This document shows positions 742 through 21,410 of a DNA stretch of 22,116 bases, one piece after another. The position numbers and the translations under genes are program-made. Source of the stretch: a virus; the IMG/VR virus record IMGVR_UViG_3300020213_000513, positions 1-22,116 of that record. One strand, 5' to 3'. Below the pieces are notes generated by a model. That model did no database searches and was not told where the DNA came from. It worked only from the letters and a program-made list of their open reading frames with translations. Each line of letters opens with the position of its first letter. Position 1 is the stretch's first letter.

Positions 742-2156
742 TGCGCGGCCTCAGCGAACGCGTCGGCCTGATCAAACTTGGCAAGCATCGCCTTCACCTT
801 GTCGATGCCAGGGACACGCAGACCGGCGCCCAGCTTGTGAGCGATCCTGAGCTGCATATCGAGCGTAGGCAGCAGGAAGTTGTCGGTTAGATCGTCGCGG
901 TACTGGTCGCACCGATCGATCTGCTTTTGCTTGATTGCCTCGAGCGCCTTGCCCGAAGTCGTGGCCGCGAACTTGATGTTCTCGGGGTCGAGGAACACCA
1001 CGCCGAGCGCTTCCTGAAGCTTGATCCGAAGGTCGCGAGCGTTTTCGTCGAGCACCTTGAGCGCCGTGGCCGGGACCGTGAGGTACTCGACCCTGGTCTC
1101 TGTATTCGGATAGCGCCAGACGTAACCCGGCCCTTTTTTGCGCACGGGGCCGCCTGAGCTGCCGCCTGTGTCGTAGTTGCCCTTGCTCGGGTTGTTCGAG
1201 ACGATCTTCCCACCCAGCTCGCTCGCCTGCACAGATACGGGGCGGCCCAGCTCGGTCGGGTTGTGCTCTGGGTCAACGCCGATTTCAACCGGCTGCGGCT
1301 CGCTCAGTAGCGCGCAACGGTGGCGCTGACTGAGCGAAAGGTCGTGACCGTGGATCTCGTGCGTGAGCAGTGCATGGATTGCCTGCCCGTCGATCACGTT
1401 GATCGGCGCGCAGCCCCGCAGCAGCGGATACCAGACAACCGGGCAAGCGCCGAGATTGTGAGGGAAAGTCTTGGATGGGTCGGCGCGCCAATCTGGCTCT
1501 GCGCCGTTCTCTTTGGCGTCGGCCGGGAAAAATGTCGTGTCGCTCTGCGCGTCGATTACTCGACGGTAGAGCCTGGCGCGAACCGCCCACACGCCCGAGA
1601 TGGGATTCCTGAACTCCTCGAAATACGGGTATCGAATCTCGAGCTCGGTCACGACACCGAGAGCGTCGAACTTCGGCGTCCCCCACTTGGCAGGGATCAG
1701 ATCCGCAAACGGCTTACCGGCGCGCGCGCCGTGAATTCCAACGGCAGTGCCGCATCCCTGAGCTGCCGAGAATGCGTCGCGCGAGTGCGCGCGGAAGCGG
1801 CAGATCCTGTGGTGCTCGACCAGAAATCGGTCTAGCAGCTGGCTGTCGTCCTCGCCTAGCCCATTGTCTTCGGACTCCTCGGCCTCGCCTGGCTTGGCCG
1901 AAAACACCGGAGCGCGGCCTTCACCGAGCACCAGATCCACGTTGGACTGGATAGCGATCTGAACGATCGGATAAACGATGCAGGGCTCACGATCCCACAG
2001 CGGAACGCCGTCAGCCCACCAGTTGGGCTTGCCCTCGTACTGCCTGCCTTGCACCCAACGCTCGAGTGATTCGAGGCGCCGGTAGCGTGGCGACATGTTC
2101 GCGAGCGCGGCCCGATTGGCCTCGTCGGCGCCTTGGAACTGGATTGAGTCGTGCAT
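738..2156 (-). CDS. Phage portal protein (SPP1 gp6-like), main part
   Basis: A 472-residue protein directly downstream of the large terminase gene; the ATG at 2156 shares one base with the terL stop (TGATG). Portals form the dodecameric ring at the capsid vertex through which DNA enters and leaves. The family call rests on position and on the pattern of an N-terminal helical region (RRLESLERWVQGRQYEGKPNWW), a middle domain with CPVVWYPLL and HALLTHEI, and a late segment (VFLDPENIKFAATTSGKALE, then KQKQIDRCDQYRDDLTDNFL) typical of the clip/stem/crown part. The product stops at EAAQ just where such portals usually continue, and the continuation is found in the -1 frame in the next ORF. The N-terminal domains look intact. 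Confidence 0.8.
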   Translation of the reverse strand: MHDSIQFQGADEANRAALANMSPRYRRLESLERWVQGRQYEGKPNWWADGVPLWDREPCIVYPIVQIAIQSNVDLVLGEGRAPVFSAKPGEAEESEDNGLGEDDSQLLDRFLVEHHRICRFRAHSRDAFSAAQGCGTAVGIHGARAGKPFADLIPAKWGTPKFDALGVVTELEIRYPYFEEFRNPISGVWAVRARLYRRVIDAQSDTTFFPADAKENGAEPDWRADPSKTFPHNLGACPVVWYPLLRGCAPINVIDGQAIHALLTHEIHGHDLSLSQRHRCALLSEPQPVEIGVDPEHNPTELGRPVSVQASELGGKIVSNNPSKGNYDTGGSSGGPVRKKGPGYVWRYPNTETRVEYLTVPATALKVLDENARDLRIKLQEALGVVFLDPENIKFAATTSGKALEAIKQKQIDRCDQYRDDLTDNFLLPTLDMQLRIAHKLGAGLRVPGIDKVKAMLAKFDQADAFAEAAQ

Positions 2157-4570
2157 CAGCGGCCCGATACGGTCGTGCGGTAGTTAGGGCCACGACCGAA
2201 GCGACCGACGGCCATGTACCGGATCGCATCCATCGAGTTGTGAACCAACACGCCGTTGGCGAAAAACTCATGGTCGCTATCGACGGTCAGATCAAATACC
2301 GCTTCGCTTCGTCCTGCTGCACAGCTTTCCACCACATACGCGGGAACAAGTGTGTGTTGAGCTGTACTTGTTGGAAACGAATCCGGTTCCGCAAATTGCG
2401 CAAGTTCTAGACTCGTCGTCAACGCCGCTCGCCCTGCGCCAGGATGATTTACAGGTGTTAGAACAGAAGCGGCCTGAATCGCCGAGACCGAAACAGTCAA
2501 AGGGCGTCTTGCACTGATCGCAGTCCTTGGACACGGGCTGGCGTTTTGCGCAAACGTCTCGCCCGTGCTCAACATGCCAAGCTCGTCCCTCTGCGGAACG
2601 ATGCCACTCTTTTGTGAGTGGCCTAATCCTAGCGGCATGCTCCGACTGTTGGCGCCTCTGCTCGGGCGTTCTGTCTCTGCCGTGATCGGCGATGTGATCT
2701 CTGCCGAGTTTGCTCTCGAGATTATCGATGGAGTTATTGAGCGGGTCAGAGTCTCGATGGTGGACGTGGTGTCCGCTCGGGATGGGGCCATTGTGGTGCT
2801 CCCAGATTGCCCGATGCAGATAGCGACCATGCGGCTCACCGGGGCGAGCGCTTGATCGGAAGTAACCGGCAACGTTTGTAACGGTTGAGTCCGGGTACCT
2901 TCGGAACCATTCCCCGCCGAACCTGATTCGTTCAGACTTGCCGTGTTTTCCCATGCGACAAGCATATCACCATATCGCAGTGCGTCCAGACGGACCCAGC
3001 CTCTGTTCGCAACGAACACTCGGTGATCCGCCGTGCCCTCAAGCAAGCCGACCGATGTCTTGATACGCCAGATCGGGGCCGACTCAAATGTCTTGCCGCT
3101 CCACGACACAGCGCGCCAGCCGCCTCGCGTTAGCACCAAGTCGGAGCAGGTGACCTCTTCAATCGGGACCTCACCGTGGCTCGTTAGGACCCGGGTCCCT
3201 GCTACTAGGCAGTGATTGTCTTTGTCCTGCGGGTCTTCGTCGAAGGTTCCGTCTGGGCGTTTCTTGCGACGATAGAGACCGAATTCACGAATGGAGTTTT
3301 TGCACTTCGGCGAAACGTACATGCGCGCGAAGCGCTCGCCGTCCTCGCGTTCGCGAATGAACAGCAGGTCCGCGACTCGCGCCAGCCCGCCGTGAATGTC
3401 GTTGTCCGTCTCGCCGACCTTGAGACCAGCGCTGCGCAGATCGTTGATTCGATCGGGGCGCGACGGGTCAGGCCAGAACTTGGCGAAGTTCCACGCTTTC
3501 GCGCGTTCGTTCCAAACGTGGTTCGGGCACTCTGACTCGTACCACTCATCGAGCAGCCAGAGCTCGGCGTCGTTGCCGTGCCCGAGCACGCCGGACAGAA
3601 CGAGCACGCCCGCGTCGGTCCAACCGTGATCCATGCCGACGTGAAACTCACGAAAGCTCGAAAGCGGCGGAGGTTCCTGGACGTGGAAAGCCTCGTCGAA
3701 CGGGTAAACGAGACCTTCGCCCGCGTCGGGATTGGCCTCCCATTCGCGCTCGAACGTCGCTTTCGGTGTCGTCGCCTTCGCTCGAGCTACAGCGAGCGCG
3801 CCCACCGTCTCCGGAGAGTCGCGGTAAGTGGCGTGAAAGCCGTAGTAGCTTCGCAGCACAGCGAGTGCAGCTTGGTCCGGATCGCGAGGAAGGTGTTCGG
3901 GCCAGTCACGTTCCCGGAGGCTGGAAAACACTTCGCGGATCGCTTGCGCCACCGGCAGGGCCAGCGCGGTCGCGTCGTCGATTTGGCCCGTGCGGAGCTT
4001 GCCACCAAGTGCGCCGGCCTCGCGTGAGCGATACCAGAGCCCGTGTCGGCCCTTCGTCGGTGTGCCGCCTAGCAGCTCTATGCCAAGCGAAAAAGGCTCA
4101 GACAGCCAAGGCACACCAACGCCGTCGTAGACGTCGGCGTCGATGTCATCGACTTCGTCACACACCAGCACGTCACATCGCATGCCGCGCGCGGTGCGCG
4201 AATTGTACGAGCTGGCTGGGAAAACTTTGATTCGTGAGCCACCGGGGAAGTCCACCTGGAAGCTCTGCCGGTCGATTCGCGTCGGCCTGAGATGCGCCCA
4301 CTCGCCCGCAAGCTCAGTCTCGACGCCCTCGAGGTGGACGTCCTTCGCCTGTTTCAGCGTCGGCATCAGCAGATTGATGCGGACGCCTTTCAGTTCGCGC
4401 CGCGCGCCTGGTCGCTGCCTGTGCTCCCACTCGGAGACCAAGAGCCACCAGGCGGTGCGCGTAAACCAGGACTTCCCAACGCCGCGGCCCCAACCGTAAA
4501 ACACGGTCTGCCTCGGCTTGATCGCCTGGTAGGCCAGCCACTGCGGATGGTTGAATCGAACCTCAGTCAC
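2156..4570 (-). CDS. terL: Terminase large subunit interrupted by an intein
   Basis: The ATPase/nuclease of the DNA-packaging motor. The precursor is 804 residues: 479 residues of terminase and a 325-residue intein (residues 454-778). Seen directly: Walker A GWGRGVGKSW (residues 26-35), Walker B VLVCDEVDD (134-142), a nuclease-domain acidic motif GMDHGWTDAG (312-321, likely metal ligand D314), and a late motif that becomes KDNH-SMDAIRYM after splicing, matching the terminase 'H..DA.RY' nuclease motif. The start is GTG at 4570, overlapping the terS stop by 8 bases (GTGACTGA). The intein breaks the late nuclease motif, so unspliced protein should lack nuclease function. Recognition of terL is confident; splicing activity is inferred. 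Confidence 0.92.
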   Translation of the reverse strand: MTEVRFNHPQWLAYQAIKPRQTVFYGWGRGVGKSWFTRTAWWLLVSEWEHRQRPGARRELKGVRINLLMPTLKQAKDVHLEGVETELAGEWAHLRPTRIDRQSFQVDFPGGSRIKVFPASSYNSRTARGMRCDVLVCDEVDDIDADVYDGVGVPWLSEPFSLGIELLGGTPTKGRHGLWYRSREAGALGGKLRTGQIDDATALALPVAQAIREVFSSLRERDWPEHLPRDPDQAALAVLRSYYGFHATYRDSPETVGALAVARAKATTPKATFEREWEANPDAGEGLVYPFDEAFHVQEPPPLSSFREFHVGMDHGWTDAGVLVLSGVLGHGNDAELWLLDEWYESECPNHVWNERAKAWNFAKFWPDPSRPDRINDLRSAGLKVGETDNDIHGGLARVADLLFIREREDGERFARMYVSPKCKNSIREFGLYRRKKRPDGTFDEDPQDKDNHCLVAGTRVLTSHGEVPIEEVTCSDLVLTRGGWRAVSWSGKTFESAPIWRIKTSVGLLEGTADHRVFVANRGWVRLDALRYGDMLVAWENTASLNESGSAGNGSEGTRTQPLQTLPVTSDQALAPVSRMVAICIGQSGSTTMAPSRADTTSTIETLTRSITPSIISRANSAEITSPITAETERPSRGANSRSMPLGLGHSQKSGIVPQRDELGMLSTGETFAQNASPCPRTAISARRPLTVSVSAIQAASVLTPVNHPGAGRAALTTSLELAQFAEPDSFPTSTAQHTLVPAYVVESCAAGRSEAVFDLTVDSDHEFFANGVLVHNSMDAIRYMAVGRFGRGPNYRTTVSGR
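2237..3211 (-). mobile_element. Intein within terL (325 aa), containing an out-of-frame HNH gene
   Basis: The insert starts with Cys (CLVAGTRVLTSHGEVPIEEV, block A) right after KDNH. It carries a block B TADH motif (GTADHRVFVANRGWVRL) and ends with a block F/G-type segment (VFDLTVDSDHEFFANGVLVHN) followed by Ser as the +1 residue. The Cys1, block B Thr/His, penultimate His and terminal Asn needed for splicing are all present. Between the splicing halves is a stretch of about 200 residues, rich in Ser, Thr and Pro, with no LAGLIDADG or HNH motif in the terL frame. Instead a complete HNH endonuclease is encoded there in another frame. The splicing domain is therefore a near-minimal intein with a dual-coded linker. 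The insertion point at a catalytic motif is typical for inteins. Confidence 0.9.
2292..2954 (-). CDS. HNH homing endonuclease nested out of frame inside the terL intein
   Basis: A 220-residue ORF lying wholly inside the intein, on the same strand but in a frame different from terL. Residues 44-80 (LHRAIWEHHNGPIPSGHHVH, then HRDSDPLNNSIDNLE) form a clear HNH_3-type motif with the His-Asn-His elements. The N-terminus (FGGEWFRRYPDSTVTNVAGYF) resembles the module that precedes HNH_3 in phage nucleases. The C-terminus has two zinc modules: C145/C148 with C164/C168 and C185/C188 with C203/C207. HNH enzymes of this class cut DNA to spread themselves and their host element, so this is probably the homing nuclease of the intein. 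The ATG at 2954 has only a weak ribosome-binding site, so it may be translated at a low level. It could instead be an independent homing gene that entered the intein linker. Confidence 0.88.
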   Translation of the reverse strand: MGKHGKSERIRFGGEWFRRYPDSTVTNVAGYFRSSARPGEPHGRYLHRAIWEHHNGPIPSGHHVHHRDSDPLNNSIDNLESKLGRDHIADHGRDRTPEQRRQQSEHAARIRPLTKEWHRSAEGRAWHVEHGRDVCAKRQPVSKDCDQCKTPFDCFGLGDSGRFCSNTCKSSWRRASGVDDESRTCAICGTGFVSNKYSSTHTCSRVCGGKLCSRTKRSGI

Positions 4571-8081: not shown

Positions 8082-8467
8082 GTTGATTCAATCTCCTTAG
8101 TTGCCGCGCTCGATTTGTAAAGCCTCAGTCTTCCGACCCACTTCTTCGCCAGCGACTTGCGCATCGGCACGAAGGCCAGGACTGTCATGCTCCCGGCCGG
8201 GACCTCGGTGCGCCCGTTGTCGAACACGGAAACCATCAAGCCGTCGAGCGCTCGATCGCGACTCAGCTTTTCGAAGTCTCGGATGGTTCCACCGAGAATC
8301 ACCTTCGGATAATCGTTCGATTCCCAGGCGGCGAGCGGTGAGCTTCCCTCTTTTTCTGCCTTGCGCATCGCCAGCTGAACGCCGTGACCGACCTGCGCCG
8401 CTAGCTTGCCGGGCGACATGGTGAGTTCAGTGCGCGCCACGATGTACATCACTAATTCATCAGTCAT
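8078..8467 (-). CDS. pth2: Peptidyl-tRNA hydrolase, Pth2 type
   Basis: Pth2 enzymes release the peptide from peptidyl-tRNA that falls off stalled ribosomes. The N-terminus (MYIVARTELTMSPGKLAAQV, then GHGVQLAMRKA) matches the Pth2 signature 'R.DL.M..GK.AAQ..HA', with likely catalytic K21 and H28. A later VILGG...DFEKLSRDRALDG also fits. At 129 residues it has the family's usual size. Pth2 is the archaeal and eukaryotic type, while bacteria normally use the unrelated Pth1, so a phage copy is notable. It may rescue ribosomes during infection. It sits between a zinc protein and a 103-residue unknown with ATGA overlaps. Confidence 0.85.
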   Translation of the reverse strand: MTDELVMYIVARTELTMSPGKLAAQVGHGVQLAMRKAEKEGSSPLAAWESNDYPKVILGGTIRDFEKLSRDRALDGLMVSVFDNGRTEVPAGSMTVLAFVPMRKSLAKKWVGRLRLYKSSAATKEIEST

Positions 8468-8775
8468 ATTGACTCAATCTCCAGCGTTGCCGCCTCTAAC
8501 TCGTGACTGCTTTTCCTGCTCCAGACAACTGCGTCATCTTTCCGCCTAACTATCCGGACGTCCCCGCCGACCGCCTCCGCGGTCCGTATCAGCCGGTCAA
8601 GGCCGCCGTCAGCATCGTTACCGTTGGCCATCGCGACCCATTGCGGGGAGTCGGCGAACGGGCGAAGGAGCGATTTCTCAACTACGTACCGACCGGTGAG
8701 CTTGGCCTCGTAGGGGGAGACGGTTGAGCCGTTGAGCGGACGGCCGAGGCCTGATGTTTGATAGTAGGATCTCAT
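8464..8775 (-). CDS. Hypothetical protein (103 aa)
   Basis: The ATG at 8775 overlaps the stop of the finger protein upstream (ATGA), and the stop overlaps pth2 in the same way. The frame extends further upstream, but that part is only the shadow of the finger gene. The product (MRSYYQTSGLGRPLNGSTVS, then RYVVEKSLLRPFADSPQW, then RTAEAVGGDVRIVRRKDDAV) looks like a small alpha/beta domain. I do not recognise the family. Confidence 0.65.
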   Translation of the reverse strand: MRSYYQTSGLGRPLNGSTVSPYEAKLTGRYVVEKSLLRPFADSPQWVAMANGNDADGGLDRLIRTAEAVGGDVRIVRRKDDAVVWSRKSSHELEAATLEIESI

Positions 8776-9320
8776 GCCGACTTCTTTCCGGTAAGTGGGC
8801 TTAGGCCCTTTTGAACACGGCTCCACACCGACATGGGCTGGATCCCTGTCACCCGAGCGATCTCGGCACAGGTCAGCGGCACTCCGTGAATGGCCAGACG
8901 CGTGGTTACGCACGCCCGACTACACAACTCCGCCCTGTCGAAGGCGCCCCACCCGTAGCACCCATCACCTCCGCGCTTCGGCTTCGGGCCAAACATCTTC
9001 CCGCAGGCGGTGCACTTCTTCTCCTCGTACGGTCTAGCGAGACTTGCGCCGTGACACGCCCGACCACACCACTTCGCCATGTCAAAGGCGGGCCACTTGT
9101 AGTGCCCGTTACCTCCGCGCTTCGGGCCAAACATCTTCCCGCAGTTGAGACACGGCTTCTCTTCGTACGGTCTAGTGGCACTTGCGTAGCTACACGCCCG
9201 ACTACACGGCTTCTGCTTGTCAAAGCGACGCCACATGTAGTCCCCGCGACCGTCGCGCTTCGGGCCAAACATCTTTCCACAGGCGGGGCACTTCTTCTCC
9301 TCGTACGGCCTCGCTTTCAT
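8772..9320 (-). CDS. Multi-zinc-finger/HTH protein, paralogue B (3 fingers)
   Basis: The start is ATG 9320, overlapping the upstream paralogue's stop (ATGA). The protein is 182 residues: three near-identical modules of 41-46 residues (RPYEEKKCPACGKMFGPKR..., then F-D-x5-C-x3-C), separated by the spacers SYASAT and HGASLA. They are followed by a C-terminal HTH (LTCAEIARVTGIQPMSVWSR, then VQKGLSPLTGKKSA). Each module offers four Cys for one zinc. The HTH matches that of the upstream paralogue except in the recognition-helix part. Such proteins probably bind DNA. This copy looks like the upstream gene with two modules fewer. The exact function is unknown. Confidence 0.82.
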   Translation of the reverse strand: MKARPYEEKKCPACGKMFGPKRDGRGDYMWRRFDKQKPCSRACSYASATRPYEEKPCLNCGKMFGPKRGGNGHYKWPAFDMAKWCGRACHGASLARPYEEKKCTACGKMFGPKPKRGGDGCYGWGAFDRAELCSRACVTTRLAIHGVPLTCAEIARVTGIQPMSVWSRVQKGLSPLTGKKSA

Positions 9321-10108
9321 GCCGACTTCTTTCCGGTAAGTGGGTTTAGGCCATCTCGAACACGGCGCCTCACCGAATCGTAATGGACCCCTGTCACCCG
9401 AGCGATCTCGGCACAGGTCAGCAGCACTCCGTGAATGGCCAGATGCGTGGTTATGCACGCATAACTACAAGACTTCTGCCTGTCAAAGCTACGCCACGTG
9501 TAGCACCCATCACCTCCGCGCTTAGGGCCAAACATCTTCCCGCAGGCGGCGCACTTCTTCTCTTCGTACGGGCGAACGCTACACGCCCGACCACACAACT
9601 TCCCCTCGTTAAAGTCGCCCCACTGGTAGCACCCGTTACCTCTGCGCTTCGGGCCAAACATCTTTCCACAGGCGGGGCACTTCTTCTCTTCGTACGGTCT
9701 AGCGAGACTTGCGCCGTGACACGCATGACTACACCACTTCGCCCTGTCAAAGCTACGCCACATGTAGTTCCCGCGACCGTCGCGCTTCGGGCCAAACATC
9801 TTCCCGCAGTTGAGACACGGCTTCTCTTCGTACGGTCTAGTGGCACTTGCGTAGCTACACGCATGACTACACCACTTCGCCCTGTCAAAGCTACGCCACA
9901 TGTAGTTCCCGCGACCGTCGCGCTTCGGGCCAAACATCTTTCCACAGGCGGGGCACTTCTTCTCCTCGTACGGTCTAACGAGACACGCCTGACCACACAA
10001 CTCCGCCCTGTCGAAGGCGCCCCACCCGTAGCGCCCGTCACCGTTGCGCTTCGGGCCAAACATCTTGCCGCAGGCGGTGCACTTCTTCTCTTCGTACAGG
10101 CGTTTCAC
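9317..10108 (-). CDS. Multi-zinc-finger/HTH protein, paralogue A (5 fingers)
   Basis: A 263-residue protein starting with GTG 10108, overlapping the helicase stop (GTGA). Five modules have Cys ligands at about 10/13/38/42, 52/55/80/84, 98/101/126/130, 144/147/172/176 and 186/189/214/218. Each has the shape C-x2-C-GKMFGPKR-(n)-C-x3-C. The modules are followed by a C-terminal HTH (LTCAEIARVTGVHYDSVRRR, then VRDGLNPLTGKKSA). Modules 2 and 3 are encoded by almost identical DNA. The finger shape resembles the C-terminal zinc modules of phage HNH nucleases, including the one in the terL intein, but no nuclease motif is present here. A DNA-binding regulator or a decoy are possible roles. Confidence 0.82.
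   Translation of the reverse strand: MKRLYEEKKCTACGKMFGPKRNGDGRYGWGAFDRAELCGQACLVRPYEEKKCPACGKMFGPKRDGRGNYMWRSFDRAKWCSHACSYASATRPYEEKPCLNCGKMFGPKRDGRGNYMWRSFDRAKWCSHACHGASLARPYEEKKCPACGKMFGPKRRGNGCYQWGDFNEGKLCGRACSVRPYEEKKCAACGKMFGPKRGGDGCYTWRSFDRQKSCSYACITTHLAIHGVLLTCAEIARVTGVHYDSVRRRVRDGLNPLTGKKSA
9719..9940 (-). repeat. Tandem coding repeat, 138-bp period, with an 84-bp identical core
   Basis: The segment 9719-9802 is repeated base for base at 9857-9940, exactly 138 bp (46 codons) apart, encoding fingers 2 and 3 of paralogue A. Other finger-encoding units of both paralogues, across about 8900-10100, share long near-identical tracts such as CTTCGGGCCAAACATCTT. The identity at DNA level, with in-frame spacing, indicates recent expansion by unequal recombination or slippage. 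Confidence 0.9.
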
Positions 10109-11459: not shown

Positions 11460-11515
11460 TTTTCCCACCATCGCGGCTCGTCTCTGCCGTCGCATGGTTC
11501 TTTTCGGTTAGTCAT
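11456..11515 (-). CDS. PRWW micro-ORF 2 (19 aa)
   Basis: The ATG at 11515 overlaps the cysH stop (ATGA), and the stop overlaps the next GTG (GTGA). The peptide is MTNRKEPCDGRDEPRWWEK. Its tail (PRWW plus an acidic residue) matches that of the 27-residue micro-ORF at the other end of the cassette, where the DNA CGATGGTGGGA is shared. That DNA also places a GGTGGGA ribosome-binding-like sequence just before the next start, so conservation may come from coupling and not from the peptide. Role unknown. Confidence 0.45.
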   Translation of the reverse strand: MTNRKEPCDGRDEPRWWEK

Positions 11516-12321
11516 GATGTCAGACCTATTTGTGGAAACTCAACAACAAGACGCCGCCAAACGTCGGGGTCCACGAGGCGAAGCTGGCCATGACGCCCCC
11601 AGCCCGATCCGCGCTCTCCCAGCGCTCCTGATACACGCTGGCCCTCTCGTGGCACACCAGACTCGCTCAACAAATCGTAAGCTCGGTGGTACCGAAGACC
11701 TCGCGTCGCGATGTATGCCCAGACGTCTGCGAGCGACCAGCGGGCTAGCGGCATACAATACCACGTCCCGTCTCGCCCTCGGTACAACTCACCACGCGAC
11801 CCCGTGTGCATTGCGCGGGCGTGGCTCTCTTGCGCGCGAACGCCGTGGGTGATCACACGTAGTCTCTCCCTCACTACGAATGTTTCGCTTGGCTCGTCGA
11901 TTAGCACGCGCTTAGCGTCAAATTGGCAGTCAGAATCTACGGGCCGCGCATAGCCCCACCAGCCGGCATAGCGCGCCATGTCCAGCATGGTCAGTCGTGG
12001 CGCGATCGTCAGCGCGCCGACGTGGCGCACCATCTCGTATGTCTCCGACAGCTCGGCGCCAGAATCGAAGAACGCGATCGGCGCAATAGACAGGACATCG
12101 CGCACGAGGGCGACGCAAACGGTGGAGTCCTTACCGCCCGAGAACGAAACGCCTACCGCTCCAACCTCGGAAGCGCGGCGTATTACGTCAAGCGAGGCGT
12201 CCACGCGTCGCTTGAATGCAGCGCTTTGCGCGTGAACGAAGTCCTCTCGCCGGACCGCGCTACCGGCCGCCTCCTGTTCCGCCGTCTCCAGCAGCTCCGC
12301 CACCCTTGCCTTTAGTTCCAC
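11512..12321 (-). CDS. cysH-like: CysH-like PAPS reductase-family protein
   Basis: A 269-residue protein with the PP-loop VSFSGGKDSTVCVALVRD (SGGKDS at 61-66), followed by IAFFDSGAELSETYEMVRHV, RVITHGVRAQESHARAM and the W-x-L-ADVWAYI segment typical of the PAPS reductase/DndC/CysH group. These fold like N-type ATP pyrophosphatases and bind adenylated substrates. The C-terminal ECG-type motif of true sulfate-assimilation reductases is not seen. A CysH-like gene next to csf1-cas11-csf2-csf3 is the known hallmark of type IV-B CRISPR-Cas loci, where its role is unresolved. It starts with GTG at 12321 with AGGGG upstream and a 10-base overlap with the preceding gene. Stand-alone phage PAPS reductases also exist, so the link rests on context. 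Confidence 0.85.
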   Translation of the reverse strand: MELKARVAELLETAEQEAAGSAVRREDFVHAQSAAFKRRVDASLDVIRRASEVGAVGVSFSGGKDSTVCVALVRDVLSIAPIAFFDSGAELSETYEMVRHVGALTIAPRLTMLDMARYAGWWGYARPVDSDCQFDAKRVLIDEPSETFVVRERLRVITHGVRAQESHARAMHTGSRGELYRGRDGTWYCMPLARWSLADVWAYIATRGLRYHRAYDLLSESGVPREGQRVSGALGERGSGWGRHGQLRLVDPDVWRRLVVEFPQIGLTS

Positions 12322-20300: not shown

Positions 20301-20668
20301 TCCGCCCTCCAATCAGTCGCGTTGCTCGCGCGCCAGTGCTCATAGAAGCTGATTATTGTGTACAGCTCCTCCGGAGAGCACTTCGAGCAAGTCTCGATCG
20401 CGTTGGTCTGGTTGCTTAAATAGGAGTAGAAGGCCCGGAACTCGCGCGCGTGTTCGTGCCGATCATTGTGCAGCCAAGAATCAGGACTGATCGGTGGCGC
20501 CACTACGAGGCGAAGCTGAATCAGCTCCGGATCTGTCCAATCAGTCGCATTGCTCGCCCTGGTGAGCACCCACAGGTAGACCGGATCGCCCTGGTTGACG
20601 CCGAGCCAGACGATGATGTCGAGGGCGAGTAGCCAGAAATGCAGGCGGAGGTTGTGAAGGGCGGTCAT
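20297..20668 (-). CDS. Hypothetical protein (123 aa) with N-terminal hydrophobic segment
   Basis: ATG 20668 overlaps the methyltransferase stop (ATGA). The N-terminus (LHFWLLALDIIVWLGV) could be a membrane segment or a buried helix. The motif ASNATDW occurs twice (LTRASNATDWTDPE and HWRASNATDWRAE), encoded by nearly identical 21-base stretches at 20310-20330 and 20538-20558. A CSKC motif is present near the C-terminus. No family recognised. Confidence 0.6.
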   Translation of the reverse strand: MTALHNLRLHFWLLALDIIVWLGVNQGDPVYLWVLTRASNATDWTDPELIQLRLVVAPPISPDSWLHNDRHEHAREFRAFYSYLSNQTNAIETCSKCSPEELYTIISFYEHWRASNATDWRAE

Positions 20669-21153
20669 GGCTTCCACCGCCAGTGAGACCGACCAGTCAA
20701 GCCGCCGTAGAACACGCTGAGAATCAGGTCTTTCGGAAAGCTATTCTTCCCGTCGAAGCTCAAGCGCGGCGACAGCTCAATCACGTGAGCATTCGGGACG
20801 ACGTGCTGCTGAAACCAGTTTGCTCCGACGCTCGCCGGAGTGAGCAGAAGGATGCGAGCGCCGAGCTTCATCTCCGTCGCGCACTTCTCGGCCCACGGCG
20901 CGATGCAGCCGAATTCGGGATTGAGCCAGCAGACGAGCCCGCCCGACTTGACGCGCCACTCTTGCTTGAGTGAGTCCTGCTCCTTTGTGAAGTAGTTTGG
21001 CGCCTTTGCGTTTTCAGGCGTAGCGGCCAAGTCCCACGACAAGAAACCGAAGCGGAGGGCAACGGCTTGCAAGAATTCTCCAGGCGTCTCGTACGCCTGG
21101 AAGCTCTTGCCTCGATTCATCGAAGCGCCCGTGATGATGTTTCCGTCAGCCAT
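20665..21153 (-). CDS. Dam-like DNA N6-adenine methyltransferase (phage type)
   Basis: ATG 21153 shares a base with the upstream stop (TGATG), with GGAGG 8 bases before; the longer frame is rejected. The 162-residue product matches the short phage Dam family: FQAYETPGEFLQAVALRFGF (residues 18-37), LSWDLAATPENAKAPNYFT, a DSLKQEW segment and LVCWLNPEFGCIAPWAEKC, where NPEF takes the place of the usual (D/N)PP(Y/F). SPRLSFDGKN follows. Such enzymes protect phage DNA from host restriction. The changed motif residue may reduce activity. Confidence 0.8.
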   Translation of the reverse strand: MADGNIITGASMNRGKSFQAYETPGEFLQAVALRFGFLSWDLAATPENAKAPNYFTKEQDSLKQEWRVKSGGLVCWLNPEFGCIAPWAEKCATEMKLGARILLLTPASVGANWFQQHVVPNAHVIELSPRLSFDGKNSFPKDLILSVFYGGLTGRSHWRWKP

Positions 21154-21410
21154 CAATGAATCCTCCATGCGACAAGCAACAAGAGCGCCGCAACAACCGC
21201 GAGCGCGCCCCAACCTCGGCGCAGTCGGCGGGATTGGTTGCGACAGGCGGGGCACTGTTGACCGCGCTGGCGCAGTTCTTGGGCAATCTGGACGCGCGCC
21301 TCAGCGGTCGCCGCGTACACGGCCCAAAATGACAACACGCTACCAGTCGGATCGTTAAACGATGACCACTCGGTGTCCTTGCGCGGATGCCCGCATGACC
21401 AAACAGCCAT
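21153..21410 (-). CDS. Small membrane-anchored zinc protein (85 aa)
   Basis: ATG 21410 shares a base with the preceding stop (TGATG). Residues 1-60 contain CGHPRKDTEW and CPACRNQSRR, a possible zinc site shared by Cys/His pairs. The C-terminus has a single hydrophobic segment, GALAVVAALLLLVAWRIH, likely a transmembrane helix with a very short tail. A membrane-associated phage accessory protein is plausible. No family recognised. Confidence 0.6.
   Translation of the reverse strand: MAVWSCGHPRKDTEWSSFNDPTGSVLSFWAVYAATAEARVQIAQELRQRGQQCPACRNQSRRLRRGWGALAVVAALLLLVAWRIH

Follow-up and report, generated by a model that had tools for sequence, protein, structure and literature searches.

The window analysed here is the whole of the IMG/VR virus record IMGVR_UViG_3300020213_000513 (22,116 bases), possibly a fragment of a larger genome. 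Its terL gene, for the large subunit of the terminase, lies on the minus strand as an open reading frame (ORF) that is free of stop codons from end to end, including an insert with the features of an intein; inside this insert, in another frame of the same strand, a second ORF encodes a putative homing endonuclease of the HNH type (Table 1). The HNH gene is at offset 2 from the terL frame (the host frame), which is the same as the -1 frame.

Table 1. Features of the terL locus in the window (aa, amino acids; E, expect value; pLDDT, predicted local distance difference test; ↓, junction of extein and intein)
Feature	Positions	Strand	Remarks
terL, terminase large subunit	2156-4570	-	phrog_2 terminase large subunit, E 3e-30; single open frame
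terL N-extein	3212-4570	-	
terL C-extein	2156-2236	-	
Intein (predicted), 325 aa	2237-3211	-	Pfam Intein_splicing, E 5e-10; splits the terL nuclease motif at DKDNH↓SMDAIRY
Intein N-terminal splicing block, residues 1-88	2948-3211	-	pLDDT ~97; Hint fold like solved inteins
Host-frame linker, residues 89-287	2351-2947	-	unstructured in model; protein unconserved; stop-free in relatives
Intein C-terminal splicing block, residues 288-325, ...VFDLTV...HEFFANGVLVHN	2237-2350	-	TIGR01443 intein_Cterm; pLDDT 95-98
HNH homing endonuclease gene (putative), 220 aa, ATG at 2954	2292-2954	-	offset +2 (= -1 frame) relative to terL; model pLDDT 95.3
HNH_3 catalytic core, HNH residues 44-80	2715-2825	-	Pfam; Y31, H47, H65 and H66 invariant over 81 sequences
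First zinc module, C145, C148, C164, C168	2451-2522	-	conserved in relatives
Second zinc module, C185, C188, C203, C207	2334-2402	-	conserved in relatives
Candidate internal Shine-Dalgarno site GGTGAT, weak	2966-2971	-	11 nt upstream of the HNH start; duplex energy -5.8, within the top 12% of same-phase sites across the gene

By sequence and modelled fold, the insert is a class 1 intein, and splicing is predicted. As class 1 inteins require, its position 1 is a Cys, which is invariant in the alignment of relatives, and its C-terminus is His-Asn with Ser at +1 (VHN↓S); block B contains the T-x-x-H motif (T60 and H63, the latter invariant across 81 inteins). The modelled ends of the intein (pLDDT ~97) match the solved Mtu RecA and Ssp DnaB inteins, and the Hint fold expected of an intein is recovered, with a template modelling score of 0.82 by target length against the Mtu RecA intein 2in0. 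Over most of its length the linker of the same model has a pLDDT of 41-57, and it has no secondary structure. In most relatives the insertion point is the nuclease motif of terL, (N/D)H↓C...N↓C.DALRY. The nearest intein-free terL, that of L066, has DRDNH↓ANDALRY at this position and aligns across the junction; this reads as a clean empty site, at which the host gene is complete without the insert, as the intein interpretation requires.

The protein of the second ORF matches Pfam HNH_3 (PF13392, E 4e-16) and phrog_15471 (E 1e-38), and shows the catalytic core expected of an HNH homing endonuclease, including the two invariant residues H65 and H66. It is modelled with high confidence (mean pLDDT 95.3), and its top match in the PDB is the homing endonuclease I-HmuI, although this match is weak (E 0.14). 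The ORF takes in the entire linker together with the final bases of the N-block, and it extends about 59 bases into the C-block, inside which it ends: its TGA stop arises from the host Phe-Asp codons TTT GAT. A similar position is common in relatives, the HNH stop falling +2 to +26 bases from the Tyr/Phe codon of block F, inside the C-block, in 63 of the 85 stops that could be placed. Within the window, G+C content by codon position did not clearly separate the frames.

The initial annotation of this DNA had proposed an HNH gene out of frame within a complete terL intein, and the ORFs, the splicing blocks and the Pfam and phrog matches bear this out. Its description of a 220-residue enzyme with two zinc modules in the linker region holds as regards size, frame and the two Cys4 modules, but the gene is not confined to the linker and overlaps both blocks. 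Its view of the doubly open stretch, as filler in the terL reading and a structured enzyme in the other, agrees with the models and with the substitution rates in relatives reported below.

The same arrangement recurs in relatives. The scan with the intein alignment covered the best 80 of 508 relatives, earlier loci being added for the profile searches. In 106 inteins (90 under 90% identity) with a continuous host frame, this HNH lay between the two blocks, in every case at offset 2, and the profile searches found none at offset 1 among these 106. Offset 0 was seen in four inteins only (L033-L036), with an HNH of a different kind. Scans with the HNH alone, together with a few fetched phage records, covered loci that had not been chosen for inteins, contigs of bacterial and archaeal genomes among them; they returned 76 nested loci at offsets 2/2, about 20 split or half-seen inteins and 19 rows in which no intein blocks were recognised; an in-frame HNH of this family was not among them. 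The two sets, which had some contigs in common, were pooled, and thinning at 65% identity left 147 nested HNHs. Judging from these comparisons, this is an old arrangement and one found widely among bacterial and archaeal viruses, a recurring mobile element and no accident. The HNH gene is present, unannotated, in the terL genes of two cultured phages, Tetrasphaera phage TJE1 and Acinetobacter phage Highwayman. At a further locus, L007, one ORF contains two separate inteins (1060-1875 and 2557-3348), each with an HNH in the -1 frame.

In the window alone, the open second frame is within chance: synonymous shuffling of the HNH codons predicts 1.25 stops in the host frame, with a probability of 0.19 for none. 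Significance comes from the family. Among 98 intein-associated HNHs, which were found by HNH similarity so as to avoid selection for an open frame, the host frame is free of stops in 80, where their own codons would lead one to expect 10.3. The remaining 18, associated with split or half-seen inteins, contain 152 host-frame stops against 148 expected, and 13 free-standing HNHs contain 91 against 88. In eight comparisons of related inteins, the HNH frame had a ratio of non-synonymous to synonymous substitution rates (dN/dS) of 0.07-0.24 and the host frame one of 0.55-1.33, most substitutions being at HNH third positions. The HNH frame is thus under purifying selection in relatives, whereas the host frame is near neutral but kept free of stops.

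The substitution analysis of homologues that the initial annotation had called for came out in favour of an HNH frame that is kept as a protein. Single-frame homologous inteins, which might have exposed the frame change as an indel or a sequence error, are the opposite of what was found, as all the continuous inteins found with this HNH have it at -1. The arrangement had also been regarded as unusual compared with in-frame inteins; the separate overlapping frame justifies this, but with 147 nested relatives it is not peculiar to the window virus.

As regards the start of the HNH gene, the family uses ATG in 77 of 88 cases and GTG in 10. With start codons picked by the analyst close to the start of the profile, the Shine-Dalgarno (SD) duplex energy upstream of the HNH starts was -4.58, compared with -2.34 at same-phase sites of the same genes (p 3e-7). 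A conserved Trp codon was considered as the source of the HNH ATG and dropped; an ATG at that place forces Trp or Cys in the host frame (Trp in 52 of 88).

Evidence for mobility comes from Highwayman, whose terL bears an element of the same kind. A nucleotide search with its intein DNA found no second phage record, while matches to its terL N-extein turned up in 41 further records of Acinetobacter phages. The terL genes of the two that were fetched, Acba_21 and Abp9, are short. Highwayman and Acba_21 differ by 15 mismatches in 1,815 bases, all at -163 to +12 of the insertion (hypergeometric p 1e-12) and eight of them at or just past the junction. Amino acid changes result from only two of the 15, one of which supplies the Cys at +1. 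To judge from this alignment, the cluster of mismatches is co-conversion left by homing, and because of this tract and of the patchy presence of the intein, the Highwayman element would have moved by homing. In the family at large, HNH distances track those of the extein (r 0.56) as well as those of the intein (r 0.53), which is compatible with an HNH target within terL.

Not all members of the family are nested in a continuous gene. In Lactobacillus CL2, Staphylococcus borealis, Leuconostoc falkenbergense and Vibrio phage 1.238.A there are separate ORFs for the N-part of terL with the intein N-block, for the HNH, and for the intein C-block with the C-part of terL. In these split forms the C-part stays at offset 2 to the HNH, and the N-part can be in any frame. 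The first three (L148, L165 and L184, respectively) are cases in which a split intein with an HNH gene interrupts terL, and the annotation of CL2 gives merely terL plus HNH. At the Vibrio phage locus (L063, 227-3103), the N-part of terL has, besides the split intein, a further Hint domain close to the Walker A motif. A single stop closes the host frame just past the HNH end in L163 (4495-4505), perhaps a recent step toward a split intein. The intein blocks of L173 (3708-4688) are in different, overlapping frames, for which either an indel or a frameshift site may account. In Brochothrix phage BL3 (L147, 2195-2607), the C-terminal part of the HNH alone is found between terL-N with the intein N-block and a small intein-C ORF.

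Free-standing HNH members also occur, near intact terL genes and, in BP10, adjoining terS, and locus L005 has a terL mini-intein without HNH. Both observations agree with the suggestion, made in the initial annotation, that a free-standing homing gene entered a mini-intein. Such an origin is plausible, but nested, split and free forms are intermixed in the HNH tree, with 19 changes between them, and the tree does not settle the direction.

We regard it as highly probable that the window contains a mobile intein and, overlapping it in the -1 frame, a gene for its homing endonuclease. The terL frame would give a precursor from which, as the splicing blocks and the modelled Hint fold suggest, the intein is expected to excise itself, its linker being disordered. 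Initiation within the gene, near the end of the N-block, would give a separate HNH zinc protein from the -1 frame. At the nuclease motif, this protein would cleave or nick copies of terL that lack the intein, and repair would copy the intein in, a homing step for which the evidence is the co-conversion in a relative. Selection, to judge from relatives, keeps the HNH as a protein and the host-frame linker simply free of stops; where stops do occur in the host frame, the element takes the form of a split intein, its two parts flanking the HNH gene.

Several points weigh against this reading. The SD site of the window is weak, and some relatives have none at all. The co-conversion belongs to a relative and not to the window virus, whose nearest intein-free terL is 47% identical. 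As regards the frame, it is probable that, besides common descent, only the -1 frame is seen because it is far poorer in stops: in the nested HNH set, 203 host-frame stops would be expected, compared with 1,410 for the other frame, and none were observed. However, the 106 inteins were selected for an uninterrupted host frame, so that the zero arises by construction, and the HNHs used for this cost are nested, with codons already shaped by the constraint; in free-standing HNHs the difference between the frames is smaller (92 vs 217 stops in 2,018 codons). Block F alone had been considered as an explanation of the -1 frame and was dropped, as by inspection its codons can yield stops in the +1 frame too. 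Finally, according to work cited in PMC12613952, HNH proteins beside terminases are reported to aid packaging.

The last point raises the alternative that the HNH protein is made but works in DNA packaging and not mainly in homing, with which the location of free-standing members close to terL or terS would agree. This appears unlikely, given the constant association of the HNH with an intein at the terL site, the co-conversion tract at the insertion point, and the patchy presence of the intein DNA, in one phage as against 41 relatives with the flanking terL. It is less likely still that the HNH is made as a fusion to the N-part of terL by programmed -1 frameshifting instead of internal initiation, even if its position at -1 in every continuous intein is what such a mechanism would produce: around the point where the HNH frame is entered, 10 of 90 loci had slippery heptamers (3.9 expected) and the window had none, the -1 frame is closed a median of 4.5 codons upstream of the chosen start, the HNH starts have SD-like sites upstream, and the N-part of the split forms is in any frame relative to the HNH.

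The window is a lone metagenomic contig, and in-frame HNH inteins do exist (L033-L036), so that one could think of a recent indel or sequencing error in an in-frame HNH intein, or of the HNH frame as a decaying relic. The same offset in all continuous relatives, the lack of any in-frame member of this HNH family among the loci found, and the low dN/dS of the HNH frame beside a near-neutral host frame make this hardly credible. Equally improbable is an RNA intron with an HNH gene, in which the open host frame would be incidental; group I introns of phages often carry HNH genes, but no Rfam match was found in the window, the splicing residues and fold of the intein are conserved, and the host frame of relatives is open far more often than expected from their HNH codons. 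An overlapping -1 gene in a mobile intein remains the interpretation that we prefer.

Elsewhere in the window, all on the minus strand, there are genes for a PTH2-type peptidyl-tRNA hydrolase, here in a phage genome (8078-8467; Pfam PTH2, E 3e-22), for a PAPS-reductase-domain protein (11512-12321; E 6e-14) and for a Dam-type adenine methyltransferase (20665-21255; E 9e-17). Two adjacent ORFs at 8772-10108 are made of repeated zinc-knuckle-like units (RPYEEKKCxACGKMFGPKR...), and an upstream segment common to both is repeated again near 8464-8913.

With about even confidence, we propose that these elements form a large, hitherto unrecognised class of inteins of bacterial and archaeal viruses in which the endonuclease is always an overlapping -1 gene, the intein blocks lend it start context and stops, the frame is fixed as the stop-avoiding one, and breakdown of the host frame leads to split inteins. 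If this is true, breakdown of the host frame would be a natural route to trans-splicing. The arrangement as such would divide splicing and homing between two proteins from one DNA stretch, and searches in the host frame miss the endonuclease. The natural series from nested to split forms could be a source of new trans-splicing tools, and the two frames offer a clean system of dual-coding selection, one constrained as a protein and the other only avoiding stops. Highwayman and its intein-free near-twin Acba_21 would make homing by such an element directly testable.

Like canonical inteins with an in-frame LAGLIDADG or HNH endonuclease, the window intein has a Hint domain, an endonuclease region between the N- and C-blocks and, presumably, homing into an intein-less allele; in contrast, its endonuclease is a separate protein in another frame, and what lies in frame is filler without order. 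In 2009 Dassa et al. reportedly described 'fractured genes' in which an endonuclease gene separates the two halves of a split intein. This layout is shared by the relatives in Lactobacillus CL2, Staphylococcus borealis, Leuconostoc and Vibrio phages, whereas in the window, as in most relatives, the halves are still on one continuous frame. With I-HmuI, its top fold match, and other HNH homing endonucleases the window protein has the HNH core in common; apart from the weakness of that match, it differs in having two zinc modules and in being borne by an intein and not by an intron. The TerL inteins of mycobacteriophages have the same host gene but sit in its ATPase domain (Kelley et al. 2016, PMC5050341), most of the present family being instead in the nuclease motif.

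The closest parallel found is the ShiLan domain, together with the Pacc40 insertion, in mycobacteriophage DNA methylases (Arsenault, Gosselin, Gogarten 2025, PMC11855218), in which a zinc-motif HNH is likewise out of frame (in the third frame) inside an open host gene, with patchy spread and a proposed internal start. For overlapping frames the same paper cites a preprint (Gosselin 2025) on actinobacteriophage inteins of 'non-canonical architecture' which, by its title and the citation, may describe related overlapping-frame inteins. The phage records that matched the window HNH included no mycobacteriophage, and TJE1 was the only actinobacteriophage among them. The authors found no splicing blocks of intein or intron in the ShiLan insert and suggested that it stays in the protein (PMC11855218), whereas the insert in the window has complete splicing blocks.
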